In this document: in pieces, positions 12,351-24,238 of the stretch | Layout of the letters: every line of letters begins with the position of its first letter | Numbering within the stretch: the first letter of the stretch is position 1 | From: Planctomycetota bacterium | GTDB lineage: Bacteria; Planctomycetota; Planctomycetia; Planctomycetales; Planctomycetaceae | DNA length: 64,000 bases | Reading direction: 5' to 3' | Assembly: GCA_003388505.1 (NCBI GenBank) | Contig: QQVO01000010.1 | Location: 1-64,000 of the forward strand | Notes under the pieces: model-generated | Told to the model about the DNA's origin: nothing | The model's input: only the letters and a program-made list of their open reading frames with translations | Databases searched by the model: none | Program-made: the position numbers and the translations under genes

Positions 12351-12379
12351 TTGACAGTCCGCTGGGGCCGGAATAGCAT
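12351..12379 (+). promoter_or_regulatory. Sigma70-type promoter for the ExbB/ExbD envelope operon
   Basis: A perfect -35 box TTGACA (12351-12356) is separated by 17 bases from TAGCAT (12374-12379), which matches four of six -10 positions. It lies about 150 bases before the first operon gene and just after the desulfurase gene, with no competing gene between. Confidence 0.65.
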
Positions 12380-12529
12380 GGGAACTCCGCGGGTCAGTCA
12401 TGTTGAGTTGCAGTCCCTCGACCGCCGGGGCGGCTCGAGAGCCGGACTGCATCGACGCCGGCACTCGCATTCTCCCGACCGGTGAGATCGGCTGGCGCTC
12501 GCGGGGCGTTACATTTCTGAAGGTCAACC

Positions 12530-13465
12530 ATGGCGACAGCCACGCAACCTCCACCGCAGCAGAAGCCGTCCGAGCCCGTGCGGCCGGCGGAACATCCTGA
12601 ACCGGTGATGCGCGTCACCCGCTACGACAAGGTCAGCAGCGGGATGATGGCGGTTGTCATCGCGCTGATTCTGGTGGTGCTCGGCATCGTCGCCTGGTGG
12701 TACGCGACCCGGCCGGCGCCGGAACCGGTGCTGGTGCCGCTCGTCAGCATCGACGATCCCGGCGGCTTCGAGGACGGCGCCATCGACGAAACGCTGAACG
12801 TCGAGTCCCCGGAAGAAGAGATCCCGAACGCTTCGCCGGTCGACGAGGCGATCGACGACCAGCAGATCGAGGAAGCGCTTGACAGCGTCGTGGAACTCTC
12901 CGATCGGGCCACGCAACAGGTGCAGCAGGTGCTCTCCACCGATCCCCAGACCGGCGGCACGCCCGGCAGTCACGAAGGCACAGGCTCGCGGCCTTTGGGG
13001 AGCGGTGACGGCACCGGCGGCCTGCCGCGAGAGCAGCGATGGTTCATCAGCTTTTCAGAGTCGGGTTCGATCGACGTTTATGCGCGACAACTTGATTACT
13101 TCGGCATCGAACTGGGGGCCGTGTTTCCTGCGAAACAGGAACTGGTGTACCTTTCCAACCTGACCCGCAATCCGCCGTCCAAGCGAGTCGTGACGAGCAC
13201 CGACGCCGAGGCGCGGCTGTACATGTCCTGGCAGGGAGGGCAGCGGAAGGCGGCCGACGCCAAGCTGTTCGAAAGGGCGGGCGTCGACACGCAGGGGGGC
13301 TTCATCTTGCATTTCTATCCGCAGAAGACCGAGCAGCAATTGGCGCGGTTGGAGCGGAGTTACGCCAATCGTTCGGTGAAAGAAATCCGGCGCACGTACT
13401 TCACGGTCGTGCCGCAGGGCAACGGGTACTCGTTCGCCGTGACCCGGCAGTTGTATTTCCGCTGA
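12530..13465 (+). CDS. Single-pass membrane protein, first gene of the ExbB/ExbD operon
   Basis: A 311-residue protein with a Pro-rich cytoplasmic N-terminus (1-37), one transmembrane helix (about 38-59) and an acidic linker (70-165). A folded C-terminal domain of about 145 residues, probably periplasmic, begins near QRWFISFSESGSIDVYARQLDYFG. It matches no characterised family that I recognise. Its topology and position before ExbB and ExbD genes recall TonB or TolA, the proteins that carry force from the channel across the periplasm, but no TonB C-terminal motif is visible. A planctomycete-specific analogue is my inference. Confidence 0.75.
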   Translation: MATATQPPPQQKPSEPVRPAEHPEPVMRVTRYDKVSSGMMAVVIALILVVLGIVAWWYATRPAPEPVLVPLVSIDDPGGFEDGAIDETLNVESPEEEIPNASPVDEAIDDQQIEEALDSVVELSDRATQQVQQVLSTDPQTGGTPGSHEGTGSRPLGSGDGTGGLPREQRWFISFSESGSIDVYARQLDYFGIELGAVFPAKQELVYLSNLTRNPPSKRVVTSTDAEARLYMSWQGGQRKAADAKLFERAGVDTQGGFILHFYPQKTEQQLARLERSYANRSVKEIRRTYFTVVPQGNGYSFAVTRQLYFR

Positions 13466-13663
13466 GGTGGACGTTTCGGCCGGCGACTGGGTCTCGATTC
13501 GAGACGACGCAGCGATTGTCGTGTACGATCCGAGAACGAGAGGCGATTGGCCGGGCGCAATGCCGTGCCGGCGAACGGGAGTTTCCGGCGGCGCAGCAGG
13601 ACGGCCGGCGGCGCGTAATGCACATCCACGAATTCTCAGTTCATTGAAGGTGAGCGAGCGACT

Positions 13664-14311
13664 ATGGGTTTTCTCCTGAGTTGGGCCGGGCCGGTCATCT
13701 ACGTCGCGCTGGCGCTGGTGGCGCTGTACGGAGTGTTCTGCGTCATCCTGCTGGTCCGCAAGATCGCCCAGAAGCGATTCTCGAGCGCCTCAGCGGCGGA
13801 ACAGTTTCTCGACGACGTGCGCGCCTCATTGGAAAAGCGGGACTTTGAAGCGGTGGCGGAACTGTGCGACTCTCCCCGGTACTGGAGCAAAGCGACGCCG
13901 CAACTGATTCTCGTGGCCCTCGCCAACAAAGAGCGCGGCCCGCACAAACTGCGGCAACTGCTCGCGGAGAAGTTCGAACGGGACGTGCTGGCGGACCTCG
14001 AATACCGCTTCTCCTGGGTCGGTACGATCGTCAAGACGGCGCCGATGCTGGGCCTGCTCGGCACGGTGAGCGGCATGGTGCTCGCCTTCGACAAGATTGC
14101 CGAAGCCGCGCGGCAGGGAACGCTCGATCCGTCGCAGCTATCGAAACAGATCAGCCTCGCGCTGATTACCACCATGTGCGGACTACTGGTGGCCATTCCG
14201 CTGACGATGCTGGGCTCGATGGTGCAGGTGCGAATGGGCAAGCTGACCGACTCTGTCCAGGAACACGTCAGTGAGTTTCTCAACGACCTGGAATCCGCAA
14301 TGAAGAGCTGA
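13664..14311 (+). CDS. MotA/TolQ/ExbB proton channel family protein
   Basis: A 215-residue protein with the three helices of this family (about 7-30, 119-142 and 164-186) and a cytoplasmic domain between the first two. The signature TAPMLGLLGTVSGMVLAF marks the second helix, and the third has SLALITTMCGLLVAIP with the conserved threonines. Such pentamers pair with ExbD/TolR dimers to couple proton flow to work in the envelope. It follows the anchor gene after about 200 bases and precedes an exbD gene by 55 bases. Which client it powers here is unknown. Confidence 0.92.
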   Translation: MGFLLSWAGPVIYVALALVALYGVFCVILLVRKIAQKRFSSASAAEQFLDDVRASLEKRDFEAVAELCDSPRYWSKATPQLILVALANKERGPHKLRQLLAEKFERDVLADLEYRFSWVGTIVKTAPMLGLLGTVSGMVLAFDKIAEAARQGTLDPSQLSKQISLALITTMCGLLVAIPLTMLGSMVQVRMGKLTDSVQEHVSEFLNDLESAMKS

Positions 14312-14366
14312 CCGAACCGGCCGGAGGAACCGAAGGGCGAACGGCAGGAGAATCGAGGATATTGCA

Positions 14367-14816
14367 GTGGCACGAGCGTCCCTCTACAGCGGTACGACGG
14401 GCTTCAAGAAGAAGACCGAAGTCGAGGAAGACATCGACATCACGCCGATGATCGACTGTGTCTTTCTGCTGCTGATCTTCTTTATGGTCACGTCCACGAT
14501 GCAGGGTGCGAAGGCGCTCACGCTGCCGTCGGCGAAACACGGGCTGGGGGTCAATTCCAAGGAGGCGGCGACGGTGACCGTGTTCGCCGATGAAGGGGGC
14601 CCCGCCGTCTATCTCAGCGACGGCGATCGGAAGAACGGCCCCGTGGAGATGGACGAAGTCGCGGCGTACGTAAAAGACTCCGGCAAGAAAGTGATGATCA
14701 TCAAGGCCGATCAGGGCGTCCCTTCGGGATACATTGAGGAGGTCGCCCGCGCGGCGGCGGACGTCGTGGAAGACCTCGAGTTCTTTGTGGGAATCACGGA
14801 TAAACACAGACGGTGA
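14367..14816 (+). CDS. ExbD/TolR biopolymer transport protein
   Basis: A 149-residue protein with a GTG start. The single N-terminal helix (about 25-45) contains the proton-carrying aspartate Asp30 in ITPMIDCVFLLLIFFMV, followed by a periplasmic ExbD domain of about 100 residues (KKVMIIKADQGVPSGY). It is the stator partner of the channel encoded just upstream. A second, larger ExbD-type protein follows immediately, so the complex may hold a mixed ExbD pair. Confidence 0.92.
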   Translation: MARASLYSGTTGFKKKTEVEEDIDITPMIDCVFLLLIFFMVTSTMQGAKALTLPSAKHGLGVNSKEAATVTVFADEGGPAVYLSDGDRKNGPVEMDEVAAYVKDSGKKVMIIKADQGVPSGYIEEVARAAADVVEDLEFFVGITDKHRR

Positions 14817-14861
14817 CGATCCGGCGAAATCGTTCGCCGGACGTTGGTGCGGTAACACCCT

Positions 14862-15719
14862 ATGCCGATTCAGTTTCGTTGCAGTCATTGTCGACAGCGC
14901 CTGAGCGTCACACGACGGAAGGCGGGGCAGCAGGTCTCGTGCCCGACCTGCGAGGAGACGGTGCGCGTCCCGACGCTGGAAGAGGCCCAGGCGGTGCTGG
15001 CCGCCAAAGAGAGCGCCACGGAGAAGCCGCCGGCTGCCGTAGAACCTGAGGCAGCGGAAGACGAATCCCCGGCGGCCGAATCGCCGCCGCCAACGGAGGC
15101 TGCGCCGCCCGAAATCGGTCCTGCTCCCACGCGATCGCAAGCTGTCTCCGCGCCGCAGATTCCCGACATCTCCGGCGCGGGTGCAGCCGCGTCTGACGAC
15201 GTGGCGGAATTGTGGCGGTCGGAACTGCGCGAAATCGACCCGTGGCAGGCCGACGAGGACGAACTGGAGGGGGAGGACTTCCAGATCGGGAAACGCGGCC
15301 TGGCGGCCGCCGAGATGGACATGACGCCGATGGTGGACGTCACGTTCCTGTTGCTGATCTTCTTCATGATCACAGCCGCATTCGACCTGCAGAAGTCGTT
15401 GCAGACAACGCCGCCCGAACCGGAGGAGGAGGGCGCCGCACAAACGGTGACGCTGCAGGAGATTCAGGACAATTCCATCGAAGTCGTGATCACCGCCGAT
15501 GACGCAATCCTGGTCGACGACAATCCCGTGCCCGGTCCCGGCGTGCTGGTCGACGTGTTGACGAAGGCCGCGACGCTGGAGTCTCCGCCGCGGACCGACA
15601 TGCTGATCCGGGCCGATTACCGGGCGACGCACGGGATGGTCGTCGCGGTAACGGACGCCGGAATGGAGGCAAACATGCAGCACATTCGACGTGTAACGGA
15701 GCGAAGCGAGGAGGAGTGA
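14862..15719 (+). CDS. Zinc-ribbon / ExbD fusion protein
   Basis: A 285-residue protein that joins an N-terminal zinc ribbon (Cys7-x2-Cys10 and Cys27-x2-Cys30) through an acidic, Pro/Ala-rich linker (about 40-145) to a complete ExbD/TolR unit. In the latter, MDMTPMVDVTFLLLIFFMI carries Asp159 in the membrane helix and a periplasmic domain follows. The zinc ribbon must face the cytoplasm because the helix enters from that side. ExbD proteins usually have only a short cytoplasmic tail, so a cytoplasmic metal-bound docking module is unusual. Its ligand is unknown. Confidence 0.88.
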   Translation: MPIQFRCSHCRQRLSVTRRKAGQQVSCPTCEETVRVPTLEEAQAVLAAKESATEKPPAAVEPEAAEDESPAAESPPPTEAAPPEIGPAPTRSQAVSAPQIPDISGAGAAASDDVAELWRSELREIDPWQADEDELEGEDFQIGKRGLAAAEMDMTPMVDVTFLLLIFFMITAAFDLQKSLQTTPPEPEEEGAAQTVTLQEIQDNSIEVVITADDAILVDDNPVPGPGVLVDVLTKAATLESPPRTDMLIRADYRATHGMVVAVTDAGMEANMQHIRRVTERSEEE

Positions 15720-15859
15720 GAATTCGGACGCAGCGCGGGAAATCCGAATCACGGCCGGACACGAGACTCTGAAACAGTCGGACAACGAAACAGACGAACA
15801 ACACACGGCCCCCGAGTCGGGCCGGGCAGCCCCTACAACCAGCAAGACGGCAATGAGGC

Positions 15860-18800
15860 ATGGCGTATCTGGAAGCCGCTTATCTGACGGGCGACGTGCA
15901 GCGCTACGAGCTGTCCAAGCAGCAACCCGTTTCGATTGGCAACCATAAAACGAACGACATCAGCATCGACGAAGCAGACGTCGAGTTGATGCACTGCCGC
16001 GTCAGTTGGAACAAGACCGGGTACGAGGCAGTGGCCGCGGGCGTCGAACCGATCGACGTGAATGGCAATCTCGTGCAGCGCGCTTTGCTGAAGTCCGGCG
16101 ACGTTGTGCGGATCGGCACGGTCGACATCTCATTTCAGGACGGGAATTCCGCATCCTCCCCCGGCGCCGCGAAACCAGAGGCGGACGAGTCACAGGAGAA
16201 GAACGACTTCGGGCTGAAACCGATCACCGGAGAATTGCCCAGCTTTCTGGACGAGCCGGACGAAACCGTCTCGGACGATGCTCGAAAGAAGCCACCGGCC
16301 GCCCCGAAGTCGAAGTCTCCGCCCCCCGAGGAACCTGATGACGTCGACGAGGGCGACCTTCTCGATGACGAGCCGGACGAGGAAACGGACAACGCGGATT
16401 GGCTTGACGACGACGAAGACGATTCCGGAGGAGGCCTCAGCGGGCTGGATGCGCTGGCGGCCGAGAGCCGCGTCGACACGCCGTCGCGCCGCGAGATGCC
16501 GGATCGCGAGGGGCGCCGGGCGCCGGCTGACGACGAGAGTCCCGACGCGCTGAGCGGCGACGAGGAACCGGAGGAAGAGCAGGGTTCCGGAGAATCTCTT
16601 TCGGACCGCCTGCGCGAGGCAGTGAGACGGCAGCAGCATCGCCCCGGCGAGGAAGACTCGCTGCGTTCTCCGGTGGTGCTGGGCCTCGTCGGGGGGGCGG
16701 CCGTGCTCGTCCTGCTGGGCGTGACCTTTTTCTTCATTGCCAACCGGCAAACGACTCAGCAGGCCTATGATGTGGCGGCGGACCTGCTTGCGGAACAGAA
16801 GTACGCGGCGGCCATCACGGCGTTCGACGAATTCATTCTCGTCTACCGGGATCATCCCCTGGCGGATGAGGCGCGGATTCAGCGCGATCTGGCGAAGGTC
16901 GATCAGCAGATTCGCGGCGCCGTCCCGGACTGGACGAAGGGATTGGAAGCGCTCCGCAATTACATCAATGAGCATCGCGATTCGGAACGTTTCGCCGAAC
17001 TGGAATCTGAAGTCCGCGATCGCGCGGCGGAAATCGCCCAAGGCGCGGCGGCGGCCGCCGGACGTTCCTTCAATCGCGACCTGCTGGAGGTTTCCGAGCA
17101 GGCGTTGACCGTTTTTTCGACCTATCAGGACGACGCCAAGACGACTCAGCTTTTTCAGGACATCACGACGACGGCGCGGCAGTCAACCGCCGCGATCCTG
17201 CGAAACGAAACGTACAACGCGGAGCTGGCCAAGCTCGATCAGGCGATCCAGGACGGGCAACCGATGCTGGCCCTCGCCACGCGCCGCGACCTTCTGACCC
17301 GCTACCCGGATTATCGCGGGGATGCGAAACTCGCAGCGAAACTGCAGGAGACGCTGGAAACAGAGCGGTCCCTCGTTCGCAGCGAGTCACTTGACCGGAC
17401 CGCTCTCACCGACGAACCCGAAAGCGAGACGCCTCCGCCGCTGACCCTGGCGTTCCACGCCCGGTCGGAGACCGATGCCGTCTCCGTCAACGAAGCGGTC
17501 TGCGTCGTCGCCAAGGACTGCTGCTACGGAGTCGACACGATTACGGGACGGCCGATCTGGAGACGCGTCGTGGGGTTGGACGCTCCTTTCTTTCCTGTGC
17601 GGGAGTCGTCCCTGCCGAGCGTGGTGCTGTACGACACGAAGCGGCGGGAACTCGTGCGCCTGAACCAGAACACCGGAGAACTCGTCTGGCGGCAGCCGAT
17701 CGGAGAAGACGTTTCGGGAGCGCCGCTGCTGCATGAGGGGCAGATCTACCTCACCACGCGCGGCGGCCATCTGTACAAGATCGATCTTCAGTCCGGAACC
17801 GCGTCGACAAGACTGACGTTTTCGCAGGAAGTCACCGGTCCCGTCGCGCTGACCGACGGCGCCCACCTTGTCGTCGCCGGGGACCGTGAGGTCGTTTACA
17901 CGCTGTCGAGACAGCCGCTCGAATGCATCGCCGTCTCGTTCCTGTCGCAGAAACAGGACTCCATCGAGACGCCGTTGCTCACCATGGGGCCCTACGTCCT
18001 GATGGTGGAGAACGGGAGCGGGCAGACGGCGCAACTGCGGCTGCTGAACGCCTCGAATCCGTCGCAGATTACAGAGACGGCGTCGGCCGACGTCAGCGGC
18101 CGCGTTCTCGACGACGTGGTGATTCGTGGTCGGGATCTTTTTGTCCCCTCGACGAATGAGCGGGTGACCGCGTTTACCGTCTCCGACGATGAAGGGCAGC
18201 CGCCGCTGGTGCTCGGTCCTGGCTACGAAGTGAAGGGAGCGCAGCGGAGCCCGATCTTTCTCACGACCGGACCGGATCGCCAGCTCTGGATGGCCAGCAG
18301 CGCGCTCCGCAAACTTCAATTGACGGCCGACGCCCTCGAAGCGGACCAGGCCGAGCAAGCGGTCGGAATTTCCTCGCAACCGCTGCAGTACACCGGCGGC
18401 ATGCTGTTCAACGCGCGGCGACGGCCTTTCACCGACGCCGTCACGTTTACCCAACGGGACCGCACCGACCTCAGCGACAGCGACTGGCAGGTCGTGCTGG
18501 GCGCGGAGATCATCGCCTGGAGCGCAACGGAGGATGGCGAACCATCCCTGACGTGCATCACCGAAGCGGGACACACGTTCCGGGTGCGAGAGAAGGACTG
18601 GACCGCCGGCGGTTTTTTGGACGAGGCCGCCGACCGCGTGCCGATCGACGATGAAGTGACTGATCCCATCATCGCCGTCGGACTGGACGGCGGAAAAGCG
18701 GCGATCGCGATCGGTGGGGAAGAACCGATGGTGCGGAGCGTGACCCAGTTGGCCAAACTCGAGGGGCGGTTCCCGCTCGAAGCGCCGCTGCAGGCCGAAC

Positions 18801-19525
18801 CGGCCGTGATGGGGGACCGACTCATACTCCCGGTCGCCGGAAAGCTTCAGGCGTCGTACGGTCCGGGGTTGCCGCGCATCCAGGACTTTGCGTTGCCCAG
18901 CGATCAGGCGGAAACGTCCGGCTGGCGTCAGGTTCTGCCGGTCGATGATGAGACAGTGGTCGCCGTCACGGAGTCCGGCCAGTTGATCCAGATCCGTCGA
19001 CAGACGAATCCCCGCTCTCACCTGGGCGAAGTCAGCCGCAGCGAACTGGGAGCGGCGGTCGACGTCACCGGGGACTCCGGGGAGGGAACTCTGGTCATTG
19101 CCAGTGCGGACCAACGCCTGCGTCTGTTTGACTCGGCGAATCTGGACGTCAAGGCGGAACGCTCGATGGAACAACCGGTGTCCGGCCCGGTCTGGCTCGT
19201 TGGTACGAACGTCTTCGTGGAAACGGCGGACGCGATGTGCCACTGCCTGGACGCGGAAAACGGCCTCCAACCGAAATGGGCGTCGCCGCTCGATTTGTCC
19301 GGGTCATTCGTCGCAGACCGGCCCGCCCTCGTCGGCGATCGCATCCTGCTCGCACGCGGCGACGGCACAATCGTCGCGGTCAATGCCGGCTCCGGCGAAC
19401 CGATCGCACAGTTGAACGTCGAATCCGCCGTGACGAAGGGTCCGATCGCCGTGGGCGGAGCATGGTTTGTCGCAACGCTCGACGGCAGCCTGGTGAATGT
19501 CACGCAGATTTCCAAACCTGAGTAA
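15860..19525 (+). CDS. FHA-like / transmembrane / PQQ beta-propeller protein
   Basis: A 1221-residue protein. Residues about 20-92 form an FHA-like beta sandwich (VSIGNHKTNDISI to GDVVRIGTVDISF), but the Arg of the usual GR and the Ser before the His are replaced, so phosphothreonine binding is doubtful. Residues 95-268 are an acidic disordered linker, 270-294 a membrane helix and 300-500 TPR-like helices. The rest is a propeller of PQQ-type blades, for example LVRLNQNTGELVWRQPIGE and GQIYLTTRGGHLYKIDLQSG. A cytoplasmic sensor linked to a periplasmic propeller recalls BamB or TolB in Tol-like systems. It sits between the ExbD genes and a secreted binding protein in the operon. Confidence 0.85.
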   Translation: MAYLEAAYLTGDVQRYELSKQQPVSIGNHKTNDISIDEADVELMHCRVSWNKTGYEAVAAGVEPIDVNGNLVQRALLKSGDVVRIGTVDISFQDGNSASSPGAAKPEADESQEKNDFGLKPITGELPSFLDEPDETVSDDARKKPPAAPKSKSPPPEEPDDVDEGDLLDDEPDEETDNADWLDDDEDDSGGGLSGLDALAAESRVDTPSRREMPDREGRRAPADDESPDALSGDEEPEEEQGSGESLSDRLREAVRRQQHRPGEEDSLRSPVVLGLVGGAAVLVLLGVTFFFIANRQTTQQAYDVAADLLAEQKYAAAITAFDEFILVYRDHPLADEARIQRDLAKVDQQIRGAVPDWTKGLEALRNYINEHRDSERFAELESEVRDRAAEIAQGAAAAAGRSFNRDLLEVSEQALTVFSTYQDDAKTTQLFQDITTTARQSTAAILRNETYNAELAKLDQAIQDGQPMLALATRRDLLTRYPDYRGDAKLAAKLQETLETERSLVRSESLDRTALTDEPESETPPPLTLAFHARSETDAVSVNEAVCVVAKDCCYGVDTITGRPIWRRVVGLDAPFFPVRESSLPSVVLYDTKRRELVRLNQNTGELVWRQPIGEDVSGAPLLHEGQIYLTTRGGHLYKIDLQSGTASTRLTFSQEVTGPVALTDGAHLVVAGDREVVYTLSRQPLECIAVSFLSQKQDSIETPLLTMGPYVLMVENGSGQTAQLRLLNASNPSQITETASADVSGRVLDDVVIRGRDLFVPSTNERVTAFTVSDDEGQPPLVLGPGYEVKGAQRSPIFLTTGPDRQLWMASSALRKLQLTADALEADQAEQAVGISSQPLQYTGGMLFNARRRPFTDAVTFTQRDRTDLSDSDWQVVLGAEIIAWSATEDGEPSLTCITEAGHTFRVREKDWTAGGFLDEAADRVPIDDEVTDPIIAVGLDGGKAAIAIGGEEPMVRSVTQLAKLEGRFPLEAPLQAEPAVMGDRLILPVAGKLQASYGPGLPRIQDFALPSDQAETSGWRQVLPVDDETVVAVTESGQLIQIRRQTNPRSHLGEVSRSELGAAVDVTGDSGEGTLVIASADQRLRLFDSANLDVKAERSMEQPVSGPVWLVGTNVFVETADAMCHCLDAENGLQPKWASPLDLSGSFVADRPALVGDRILLARGDGTIVAVNAGSGEPIAQLNVESAVTKGPIAVGGAWFVATLDGSLVNVTQISKPE

Positions 19526-19548
19526 CGACTGATCGATCTGGTGGACTC

Positions 19549-22143
19549 ATGCTTTTCTCGCTTGCAAATCGGCTGCGTTGCTGCGTGATCCATCCGCAGA
19601 GCGCGACGGCAGCGGCATGCAATTCTGCATCGCAACTTCGCTCTCTCGCGGCATCCGGTATCGCGATGTGTCTCGCCGTCTTCCTCATCGCCGGTGGACA
19701 ACCGGCGGTCGGTCAGGACGAGAACGAGACCGAGGAAAGTGAAACTGACGACGCGGAGCCGGCCGAGTCCGAAGAGGCCTCGCTTCCGAAGCTGGCGGAG
19801 ATGGAAATCCCCACCGCAGAGGAACTGCTGACCGGACCGCCGCGCGACTGGGTGATTCTCAAGAATTCCGAAGTCATCGTCTGCGAGCCGATTGTCCCGC
19901 GGCCCGAGACCCTCGAGTTGCGAGCGCAGGCGATCGATCAGAAGAAGCTCGAGATGCGCGGGAAGAAGGGGGAGGAGCTGACGCGGCTCCGTGACGAGTT
20001 GAACGACCTGAATTACCTGGAGATCACCCTCCCGGAGGATCTCGAAAACCCTGAATACCGGATCGAGATCGTCAAGATCGACCGCTTCCTGCATCACGAA
20101 GATCTGATGCTCCGGCGAATCGACGCGCTGGTGTCGGAGGGCCGGCTCGACACGGCGTTCGAACTGCTGGTGCGCCTGAAACGGACGTGGGACGACTGGC
20201 GCGGCATGGCGGAGCGGTACGACGACCTGTTGTTCGCCGACGCGAAACAGAGACTGGAGGCGGGAGGCCCGGAACGCGCGCTGGTCACACTGGGCGAATT
20301 GAATGAGCGCAACCCCGGATATCCCGGCCTGGCGGACCTGGCGGGGAACGTGATCGACGGACTCGTCTCCAATGCGCTGGCGGAAGGCAATGTCAGGATG
20401 GCGCGGCACTTCTTGTTCCGCCTCGACGACATGTATCCGCAACATGCCGTCTTTGCGCGGCATTCGGAGTCGTTGACCCAGAAGACGAACGACCTGCTGA
20501 CGGCGGCGGAAGAGGCGCAGGCCGCGGGGCGGCTTCCGGAAGCGGCCGATCTCGCCTGGGAGGCCGCCCAACTCTGGCCGAGAACGCCGGGGCTGATGGC
20601 GCGGTATCGACCGATCGTTGAGCGATACCAGCAGTTGCGCGTCGGCGTCGTACACCTTGCCGACGAGGTCGACTCCTCGCCGTATGAAACACCGGCCGAG
20701 GCGCGGGCCCGGCAATTGACGGAAATCCCGCTCTTCGAGAAGGACCGATTCCGCAACGGAACGGTCTACTACCGCACACGATACTTCGACGAATGGGAGC
20801 CGTTCGATCTCGGACGCCGATTGCAGATTACGCTGCGCCAGTCGCGGCAACCGTGGGAAGCCCAACCGCTGATCGACGCTCCCCGGCTGGCATCGCTGCT
20901 GGAAACGCGACTCGACCCGGGCAGCGATCTCTATGACGAACGACTGGCGTGGTTCATCGATTCGATTCGGGTTCAGACGCCGGTGGAACTGACGATCCGG
21001 TTCCGCCGCGTGCCGCCGCGCGTGGAACCGCTGCTGGACGAGATCGTCCCCATGGAGGCGAGAACGTCTGCATCGGAACTTACAGACGGCGAAGTGTCGC
21101 TCCAGGACGAGCCGGCCGAGGAGGGAGAAAGGACTCCGGCGGGAGGATTTGCGCCGGTCGCCAGCGGATCGGACCCCGACGTGATGACTTTCCGCCGCGC
21201 GATTCCCGAACCCGACGGGCTGCCGCAATACCACGTCGGCGAAGTGATCGAGCACCGGTACATCTCGCACGAGAAGGCCCTGCAGGCGCTCAAGCAGGGC
21301 GAAGTGTCGATGCTGCCCGATCTCCCCGACTGGATCCTCCGCCGCCTCCAGCAGGATGAAAACAGCGCGACCTCGTACTTCATCCAGCCCTACGCCATTC
21401 CGACGACGCACATCCTTCAGCTAAACCCGCACAGCCGTCCGCTGCGGGTGCGGGAGTTGCGGAGATCGCTGGCCTACGCGGTCGACCGGGATTCGATTCT
21501 GAGAGACACCGTTCTCCGGGACTACGATGCCGCGCACGGCCGCGTGGTGACCAGCCCGTTTCCCTCGCGCAGTCCTGCCAACAGCCTCGATGTGGAACCG
21601 CGAAGCTTCGATATTTCCGCCGCGGTCGCACTGATGCTGGCGGCCGCCGGACAACTGGATGGAGCGATCCCCGTTCTGAAGATGCATGTTCCGCCCGGTC
21701 CGGTGGAACGGGCCGCGGCGGAGGAACTGATCAAATCGTGGAAGCGGATCGGGATCGAGGTTGAAATCATCCCGGCCGACGCTGACCCCCAAACGCCGTG
21801 GGATCTGCACTACCGGACGCTGCAGCTTGTCGAACCGACGCTCGACGTCTGGCCGTTCCTGACCGGCGAACCGACGGCCGAAATGGCCGACCTGGCGGTC
21901 TTCCCGGACTGGCTTCAGCAACAATTGATTGCCCTGGATCGGACTTCGGATCTCGGACGCTCGCTGGCAGCCACGCGCAGGCTCCACGAGGCGTTGTGGT
22001 CGGAAGTCCGATTCCTGCCGTTGTGGGAGGTCGACCAGTTCATGGTCATCCGGAAGAACATCCTTGGTTTCCGGGCCGAGCCCATACACTGCTACCAGGA
22101 TGTCGACCACTGGACAATTTCCGCCTGGTTCCCCACGGAGTGA
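19549..22143 (+). CDS. Secreted TPR-like / solute-binding protein family 5 fusion
   Basis: An 864-residue exported protein: a signal-like hydrophobic segment at 33-50 (cut near AVGQ), an acidic stretch, helical TPR-like repeats at about 190-370 and a C-terminal half like bacterial extracellular solute-binding protein family 5 (peptide/nickel binding). Visible family landmarks are ALKQGEVSMLPDLPDWILRRL, LRVRELRRSLAYAVDRDSIL and a closing LPLWEVDQFMVIRKNILGF. No ABC permease or ATPase gene is present, so it is unlikely to serve import. It may act as a ligand-sensing or docking part of the ExbB/ExbD-energised complex. Confidence 0.8.
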   Translation: MLFSLANRLRCCVIHPQSATAAACNSASQLRSLAASGIAMCLAVFLIAGGQPAVGQDENETEESETDDAEPAESEEASLPKLAEMEIPTAEELLTGPPRDWVILKNSEVIVCEPIVPRPETLELRAQAIDQKKLEMRGKKGEELTRLRDELNDLNYLEITLPEDLENPEYRIEIVKIDRFLHHEDLMLRRIDALVSEGRLDTAFELLVRLKRTWDDWRGMAERYDDLLFADAKQRLEAGGPERALVTLGELNERNPGYPGLADLAGNVIDGLVSNALAEGNVRMARHFLFRLDDMYPQHAVFARHSESLTQKTNDLLTAAEEAQAAGRLPEAADLAWEAAQLWPRTPGLMARYRPIVERYQQLRVGVVHLADEVDSSPYETPAEARARQLTEIPLFEKDRFRNGTVYYRTRYFDEWEPFDLGRRLQITLRQSRQPWEAQPLIDAPRLASLLETRLDPGSDLYDERLAWFIDSIRVQTPVELTIRFRRVPPRVEPLLDEIVPMEARTSASELTDGEVSLQDEPAEEGERTPAGGFAPVASGSDPDVMTFRRAIPEPDGLPQYHVGEVIEHRYISHEKALQALKQGEVSMLPDLPDWILRRLQQDENSATSYFIQPYAIPTTHILQLNPHSRPLRVRELRRSLAYAVDRDSILRDTVLRDYDAAHGRVVTSPFPSRSPANSLDVEPRSFDISAAVALMLAAAGQLDGAIPVLKMHVPPGPVERAAAEELIKSWKRIGIEVEIIPADADPQTPWDLHYRTLQLVEPTLDVWPFLTGEPTAEMADLAVFPDWLQQQLIALDRTSDLGRSLAATRRLHEALWSEVRFLPLWEVDQFMVIRKNILGFRAEPIHCYQDVDHWTISAWFPTE

Positions 22144-22149
22144 TCCGAT

Positions 22150-23712
22150 TTGATTGCCATCCGAGACATTGCCCGAATTCGCAAAGCGAGACGTGCCCCG
22201 CCGGCCCGTATGCCGTCCGTTGGCGCGTTCGTCTGGTTGATCCTGGCAGCGGCAATGTGGTCTCGCGGCGACGACGAGCGGCCCGCGCCTGCCGATCCGG
22301 CCAGCGCCCAGTCTGCGGAAGCAGGCGACCCGGACGCAGAGCCGGCGGCCGCCGAACTGCCGTTCGAGCAGCGTCCCTACCGGGTGCTCGTGTCGTTCGC
22401 CGTGGAGAATCGTCCGGAATTCGGTAACGCATTCGCCGCAAGTCTGCAGGAGACGGTGGAAGCTCGGCTGCAGGTCCGCTTCGGGCAGATGTGGGACGTT
22501 TCCATCGAACAGACGCGGGGCTGGGCGCCGGTGGCGAGCGACGTGCTGTCGCGGCGGACCGACGACGAACTCAACGCCGCCTATCTGCCGACCGATGCGG
22601 ATAAAGTTTTCCTGACGGGGATCGCGCGCCGGGACGGCGCCTACCTGGCGTTCGCCCGCGAGTGGGATCGCAACAGCCGGTCCGCAGGCCCCACGCTGTC
22701 GCGAACGACCTACGATCGCCGTCTCGTCGGAGATCTCGCCGCTGATTTGATCCACGACCTGTTTCGCCCCATCGCTCTGGCAACGAGCGTCGACGACGCG
22801 GGCGTCGATCTGCTGATCCGGGCGGGGGAATACCTGACGCCGGACCCGGATTCACAGCCGTTTCGCGAGGGGGATTACCTGACGACCTATTTCCGCTATC
22901 TCAACCGGCAACGTGAGCTGAGACAATTGCAGCATGTCCCGTGGACGTTTCTGCGCGTGGAAGCGGTCGATCGCGCCCGCCTGCGGTGCAGCGTAGTTTC
23001 GACGTTCCGGCGATCGCCGCTGGGAGGCGCGCGGCGGAGAGTCGAGTTGATCGGAATGCGAGCCCGCCCGCTGTTCGACCACACGGCGCTCCACATGGCG
23101 CCCCGCGGGGCGACGAACATTCCGATGGCCGGTTACCGGGTCGACGTCATGGACCGGATGCCGACCGCAGAAGACGCTGTGGAGGACCGCTTGTCGCTGA
23201 CATCGGACCGGCGGGGGGTTGTGCGGATTCCGTCTTTTCCGGACCAGCCGCTGCGCCACCTGCTGGTCCACAGCGGAAAATCGGTGCTGGCCCGCGTGCC
23301 GATGATTCCCGGCCTCGAACCGGAAATGACGCTCAACCCGCCCAGCGACCGGGCGCGGCTGCGCGTCGAAGGCGCGCTCGCGATGCTCGAAGGCGACCTG
23401 ATCGACACGGTGGCGCGGAGAGCCGTGCTGATGGCGCGGGCCCGGCGTTCGGCCGACGCCGGGAACTGGGATGAAGTGAACACCTTTATCGCGCAGATCA
23501 AGGCGCTGCCCGATTTCAACAGGTTCGAAGACCTGATCACGGCCATTCGCACTCCCGCCGTGGAGACATCGCGGCGCCTGGGCGACCGCGTCGCAGCGAT
23601 GCGCATCAACCGGATGTGCGACGATCTGCAGCAGGTCGCGGAGGAGCATCTCGACTCGCAGAAGATCCGTGACTTCGAACAGGAAATCGCCGCGCTGCGC
23701 TCTGCGCAGTGA
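22150..23712 (+). CDS. Exported protein of unknown function, operon member
   Basis: A 520-residue protein. The start is taken as TTG at 22150 because GGAG sits nine bases upstream inside the end of the previous gene; the ATG at 22210 has no binding site. An N-terminal basic stretch and hydrophobic segment (about 22-38) suggest export or membrane anchoring. After an acidic linker, the sequence has an N-terminal alpha/beta-looking domain (YRVLVSFAVENRPEFG), a middle part with many Arg residues and a helical C-terminus. I do not recognise a family. Its 6-base distance from the binding-protein gene makes it part of the same transcript. Confidence 0.75.
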   Translation: MIAIRDIARIRKARRAPPARMPSVGAFVWLILAAAMWSRGDDERPAPADPASAQSAEAGDPDAEPAAAELPFEQRPYRVLVSFAVENRPEFGNAFAASLQETVEARLQVRFGQMWDVSIEQTRGWAPVASDVLSRRTDDELNAAYLPTDADKVFLTGIARRDGAYLAFAREWDRNSRSAGPTLSRTTYDRRLVGDLAADLIHDLFRPIALATSVDDAGVDLLIRAGEYLTPDPDSQPFREGDYLTTYFRYLNRQRELRQLQHVPWTFLRVEAVDRARLRCSVVSTFRRSPLGGARRRVELIGMRARPLFDHTALHMAPRGATNIPMAGYRVDVMDRMPTAEDAVEDRLSLTSDRRGVVRIPSFPDQPLRHLLVHSGKSVLARVPMIPGLEPEMTLNPPSDRARLRVEGALAMLEGDLIDTVARRAVLMARARRSADAGNWDEVNTFIAQIKALPDFNRFEDLITAIRTPAVETSRRLGDRVAAMRINRMCDDLQQVAEEHLDSQKIRDFEQEIAALRSAQ

Positions 23713-23728
23713 CCCCCGGAGCAATGAT

Positions 23729-24238
23729 TTGGCACTCCGCTGCAATCATTACGATCTGGCGTTCGAAGCGTACCTGCGGTCCACGCGGCGGCCGTATGTG
23801 GCGGTCGACGAAGCCAAGCGCGCCGTGCTCAGCGATCGAACGCTCAAGTCTCTCGATTTCATCGTCTATTCCGACCGCGGCCGCAATCTTCTGGTCGACG
23901 TGAAGGGGCGCAAGTTTCCGTCGGGTGCGAACGGCGCGGGAGTTCGCTGGGAAAACTGGGCGACCTCGGACGACCTCAGCAGTCTCCGCAAGTGGGAGGA
24001 AGTCTTCGGACCGGATTTCCGCGCGGCTCTGGTCTTCGCCTACGAAATCACCAGCCCCAGGTATGAGTCGCAGCACGGTGACTTATGGGCGTTTCGCCGA
24101 AAGGCGTACGCGTTCTACGCCGTGTGGGCCGACGACTACTGCGAACTGATGCGCTCGCGCTCGCCCAGTTGGGAAACCGTGTCGCTTCCCTTGCAGGAAT
24201 TCGCCCGTGTGCGGCAACCGATCAGCGACGTCCTGTGA
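23729..24238 (+). CDS. HYExAFE family protein, putative PD-(D/E)XK nuclease fold
   Basis: A 169-residue cytoplasmic protein. The N-terminal NHYDLAFEAYL is a variant of the H-Y-x-x-A-F-E signature seen in planctomycete proteins. SLDFIVYSDRGRNLLVDVKGRKFP gives Asp43 and Asp57-x-Lys59, the D and DxK of a PD-(D/E)XK nuclease core, with Glu13 as a likely fourth acidic residue. The start is set at TTG 23729 because GGAG lies 7 bases upstream; an earlier GTG at 23669 would overlap the previous gene by 44 bases. It lies 16 bases after the ExbB/ExbD operon. Nuclease activity is inferred, not known. Confidence 0.8.
   Translation: MALRCNHYDLAFEAYLRSTRRPYVAVDEAKRAVLSDRTLKSLDFIVYSDRGRNLLVDVKGRKFPSGANGAGVRWENWATSDDLSSLRKWEEVFGPDFRAALVFAYEITSPRYESQHGDLWAFRRKAYAFYAVWADDYCELMRSRSPSWETVSLPLQEFARVRQPISDVL

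Follow-up and report, generated by a model that had tools for sequence, protein, structure and literature searches.

Planctomycetes have large periplasms and no recognisable Tol or Ton partners, and they pose the question of how energy reaches their outer membrane. A locus that bears on it lies in a Planctomycetota genome of 6.78 Mb (78 contigs), within the stretch of 64,000 nucleotides that was analysed, hereafter the window. A preliminary description had proposed that the locus is an undescribed eight-gene envelope operon powered by ExbB and ExbD. ORF and domain searches recovered all eight reading frames, with the domains ascribed to them, on the + strand at the coordinates given below, and domains together with synteny backed the claim in part. 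The first gene, g1 (12530-13465), encodes a transmembrane (TM) segment near residues 33 to 60, an acidic and Gly-rich linker and, from about residue 165, a conserved C-terminal domain of ~145 residues. It is followed by an ExbB/TolQ-type proton channel subunit, g2 (13664-14311; MotA_ExbB, 2.5e-23), an ExbD/TolR-type subunit, g3 (14367-14816), and a second ExbD with a cytoplasmic N-terminal zinc ribbon, g4 (14862-15719). The ExbD domains of g3 and g4 scored 7e-18 and 2e-21 and, like the g2 domain, exceeded the curated Pfam cut-off. The g5 product (15860-19525) combines a cytoplasmic FHA domain (3.7e-6), a TM segment at about residues 274 to 296, a TPR-like stretch and a PQQ/BamB-type beta-propeller (PQQ_2, 1.3e-20). 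Two exported proteins come next: g6 (19549-22143), with a TPR-like N-terminal half and an SBP_bac_5 (dipeptide/oligopeptide-binding) C-terminal half (1e-17), and g7 (22150-23712), in which an N-terminal domain with a modelled TolB/FlgT/LpoB/CsgG-like fold precedes beta domains and a C-terminal helical bundle. The last frame, g8 (23669-24238), encodes a HYExAFE protein (NF038001, 1e-66). Gaps between consecutive genes from g1 to g8 are 198, 55, 45, 140, 23, 6 and -44 bases, the last being an overlap of 44 bases between g7 and g8.

The limits of the operon had to be revised. The HYExAFE gene, previously counted as a member, adjoins the operon in none of the other loci searched, which rules out its membership, and the 3' limit is drawn back from 24238 to the end of g7 at 23712. 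The conserved unit is therefore the seven genes g1 to g7, 12530-23712. In the g8 protein itself, a pattern around DFIVY...LLVDVKGRK resembles by eye a PD-(D/E)xK nuclease core. The promoter that had been offered as evidence is present as a string at 12351-12379 (10/12 matches). Since shuffled sequence yields 1.3 such sites in the region, and 63 regions upstream of g1 orthologues held no signal better than that of shuffled DNA, the string carries no weight.

The order g1 to g7 was found in 21 loci besides the window, spread over seven families of one Planctomycetota class. All seven relatives first examined by tblastn, six from the same family and one from another family of the class, had the genes in this order on one strand. 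With profile searches, all seven genes in order were also located in families f81, f83, f85, f88 and f93 and in further genomes of f1 and f2. A g1 match was obtained in 246 of 298 class genomes, a count that takes in distant f78 homologues without the operon; among ~350 genomes sampled outside the class there was no convincing match. At the level of the phylum, 43 of 392 genomes had a g1 match, including three outside the class, which were discounted as weak and limited to the TM segment and linker. Matches to g7 occurred in 21 of 294 phylum genomes, every one inside the class. No paper on HYExAFE or on this gene set was found among open-licence PMC papers.

Residues on which a proton-driven motor would depend are strictly conserved. 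Asp30 of g3 was invariant in 54/54 sequences and Asp159 of g4 in 34/34. The TPMID of ExbD aligned to the known ExbD motif, and we take its Asp to be the proton-carrying residue. Thr134 and Thr170 of g2, presumably the pore threonines of ExbB, were invariant in all 57 sequences compared, and the g2 profile matched solved TolQ and ExbB structures. Judged from these alignments, the motor residues appear intact in both ExbDs and in ExbB. In domains and in these residues, g2 to g4 agree with the 5:2 proton motors of the ExbB/TolQ-ExbD/TolR type. High salinity induces the Rhodopirellula baltica genes RB12053 (exbB) and RB12055 (exbD) (PMC2754498).

If the three proteins form a motor, g1 is the candidate for passing its movement on, as its topology of TM segment, linker and C-terminal domain, beside motor genes, is that of TonB and TolA. 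Known TonB, TolA and vWA transducers bind the motor through a TM histidine (PMC12204202). None of the 54 operon-type TM segments of g1 contained a His, and the SHLS motif with its motor-binding His is thus lacking in them; for this reason the assignment of g1 as transducer may be wrong. Three distant f78 homologues do have a TM His, in the contexts LLHVI (L090), FFHVL (L091) and SAAAHIL (L093), the last of these genes pointing away from an ExbB-ExbD-ExbD set that belongs to another clade. An AF2 model of g1 reached a mean pLDDT of 60, with the C-terminal domain mostly at about 80 to 90 (eight sequences). With this shallow alignment the domain had no PDB fold match, nor did it match any Pfam family, and hhalign detected no kinship of g1 to TolA. 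Descent from TolA/TonB or from vWA proteins consequently found no support in Pfam, PDB fold or hhalign comparisons.

The exported protein g7 belongs to no Pfam family. Its model, built from 34 sequences (pLDDT 90, pTM 0.80), gave best PDB matches to the flagellar LPHT ring (2e-8), TolB (2e-6) and GNA1162, and weaker ones to CsgG and LpoB. Whole-chain TM-scores were low (about 0.2), so that the likeness is that of a domain. The order of secondary-structure elements suggests that this is the N-terminal domain, and the matched ring subunit is probably FlgT. The TolB/LpoB/CsgG fold is widespread, and a viral fold library returned one weak match and no clear lead. The earlier statement that no TolB domain was recognised stands for sequence, hhalign having detected no kinship between g7 and E. 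coli TolB; by fold, TolB is among the best matches of the g7 model.

An SBP_bac_5 domain in g6 would fit a Ton-like importer, in which peptides, whether from murein or not, are bound by g6 and then driven by the motor through an outer-membrane protein encoded elsewhere. Profile searches of the genome that detected their controls found no TonB_C domain, TonB-receptor barrel or TolB_N, although a diverged TonB or TolA may escape them, and another energised route would be useful to such a cell. However, the operon has no permease or ATPase gene to serve g6 and no outer-membrane barrel, and the SBP half of g6 is strongly diverged, with a weak likeness to DppA (0.004) and a putative ligand site. 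We therefore regard energised uptake as unlikely. The same absences from the genome exclude membership in a Ton or canonical Tol system. None of the operon genes gave a canonical TonB, TolA or TolB match, in keeping with the preliminary description, in which no such domain was recognised. A single OmpA domain is encoded in the genome, on another contig.

Cytoplasmic domains of g4 and g5 differ between lineages. The zinc ribbon of g4 in the window scored below the Pfam cut-off; its CxxC...CxxC motif was found in 22 of ~34 orthologues, and in other lineages a Ser/Thr kinase or other domain takes its place. Similarly, g5 begins elsewhere with an FHA domain, a Ser/Thr kinase or another short domain. 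Kinase-ExbD fusions occupy the g4 position in two f1 genomes (L098:5369-6943 and L099:5290-6921), and fusions of a kinase to the TM-PQQ propeller occupy the g5 position at two f88 loci (L081:3979-8457 and L082:5973-10403). The g4 N-terminal domain of f77 and f79 may resemble GYF_2, for which one protein had a Pfam match below the cut-off (0.004). Zinc-ribbon and GYF domains are also borne by GltJ of Myxococcus. The TPR stretch of g5 weakly matched Tol-Pal YbgF (6e-4).

Such fusions, together with the FHA domain of g5, would also be expected if the motor proteins sensed the load on the envelope or the proton motive force and relayed it to the cytoplasm through kinase, FHA or zinc-ribbon domains, the periplasmic proteins then being sensors and not cargo handlers. 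A propeller fused to a kinase is a known sensor layout, and g5 matched AfsK. Yet a kinase is absent from most members, the FHA domain of the window lacks, by alignment, the Arg and Ser usual for phosphothreonine binding, and both ExbDs keep a proton-carrying Asp that has no obvious use in a pure sensor. We consider this reading distinctly improbable.

Comparison across families resolved two modules, a motor (exbB-exbD-exbD') and an envelope set (g1-g5-g6-g7). In f77, f87 and one f88 genome the envelope genes stand together with no motor gene among them. Tested genomes of f77 and f87 carry the orthologous triad elsewhere (E values of 1e-55 to 1e-70, the next-best ExbB scoring about 1e-16 to 1e-22), which shows that motor and envelope genes need not be co-transcribed. 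The f88 genome G357 keeps g1-g5-g6-g7, but a search there found no close ExbB, and in G182 and G198 g1 is separated from the rest. In an ExbB tree built with three paralogues from the genome of the window and with E. coli TolQ, ExbBs from operons and detached loci formed one clade (98/98) apart from these comparison sequences, and an f78 ExbB adjoining one distant g1 homologue fell outside it. The label "trans" required two changes on this tree, so at least two events have parted the triad from the envelope set. Both kinds of separation would be natural if the motor and g5-g6-g7 (with g1) were two machines that are neighbours through regulation only. Set against this are the seven-gene order kept across seven families and the retention of detached motors of the same ExbB clade, and we hold such an arrangement to be as improbable as a pure sensor.

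The reading we favour, at about even chances, is a trans-envelope motor of the Tol/Ton/Agl kind that is driven by protons and regulated. In it, g2 ExbB and an ExbD heterodimer of g3 and g4 would pass protons through the inner membrane and generate movement. Anchored beside the motor, g1 would convey this movement through its periplasmic C-terminal domain to an assembly of the g5 propeller, g6 with its TPR and peptide-binding-protein domains, and g7 with its TolB/FlgT-like fold. We infer that g1 to g7 assemble into one complex whose force output runs through g1. Cytoplasmic zinc-ribbon, FHA or kinase domains of g4 and g5 would determine when or where the motor works. In an organism without recognisable Ton or TolB, Tol-Pal-like work, in which the outer membrane or peptidoglycan would be tethered or pulled, is tentatively suggested as the likeliest of several roles. 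More doubtful is the fuller proposal of a class-wide motor that replaces Tol-Pal, with a transducer free of the SHLS histidine and cytoplasmic gating by swappable domains. Counting against the motor reading, besides the g1 TM segment without His, are the detached motors of f77 and f87, G357 with no close ExbB found, the operon's want of an outer-membrane barrel, Pal or OmpA gene, and the failure to relate g7 to TolB or g1 to TolA. Syntenic across the class, with its proton residues intact and with kinases fused to some members, the operon provides a defined gene set for deletion tests and, in g1 and g7, two unnamed protein families to solve. It also adds to the variety of periplasmic force systems reported in 2025 (PMC12204202).

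Of the systems described so far, Tol-Pal, Agl-Glt and the PVC vWA clusters come nearest, and none agrees with the operon in all defining features. Tol-Pal (TolQ-TolR-TolA-TolB-Pal-CpoB) shares an ExbB/TolQ-type channel with ExbD/TolR and a single-TM protein with linker and C-terminal domain, and a beta-propeller, TPRs and a TolB-like fold recur in the operon set. The operon differs in having two ExbDs, a membrane-anchored propeller with cytoplasmic FHA or kinase, an added SBP5 protein and, by sequence, no Pal, TolB_N or TolA/TonB C-terminal domain. TonB-ExbB-ExbD shares the motor subunits, but this genome has neither TonB_C nor a TonB-dependent receptor. That the gene set fits no Agl-like cluster was too strong a statement, though a full match is indeed wanting: in Myxococcus xanthus, Agl-Glt (AglRQS and GltG) likewise combines one ExbB and two ExbDs with an FHA-TM-periplasmic protein and exported TPR proteins (PMC3169522). 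GltG ends in a TonB-like domain, whereas g5 ends in a PQQ propeller. None of g1 to g8 resembles the Glt envelope proteins with a TonB-like domain or the outer-membrane barrels (GltA/GltH), and neither an SBP5 nor a g7-like protein is listed for Agl-Glt. The third system, also from PVC bacteria, has a tolQ-like gene, two different tolR-like genes and a TM-linker-C-domain protein, in the arrangement TPR-tolQ-tolR-tolR beside the vWA force transducer (PMC12204202). Its transducer has a vWA C-terminal domain and an SHLS-bearing TM segment, in contrast to g1, which has neither. Our positive control from the genome of the window, L022:4155-5210 on contig 21, has a vWA domain and the TM segment SAAAHVAVLF and lies near another ExbB/ExbD locus; from its domains the cluster looks like this published type. 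On contig 42 of the same genome, a 740-residue membrane protein that follows a lone ExbD (L021:7495-9717) has a TM segment with SVVLH and weak terpenoid-cyclase/TED-like matches.
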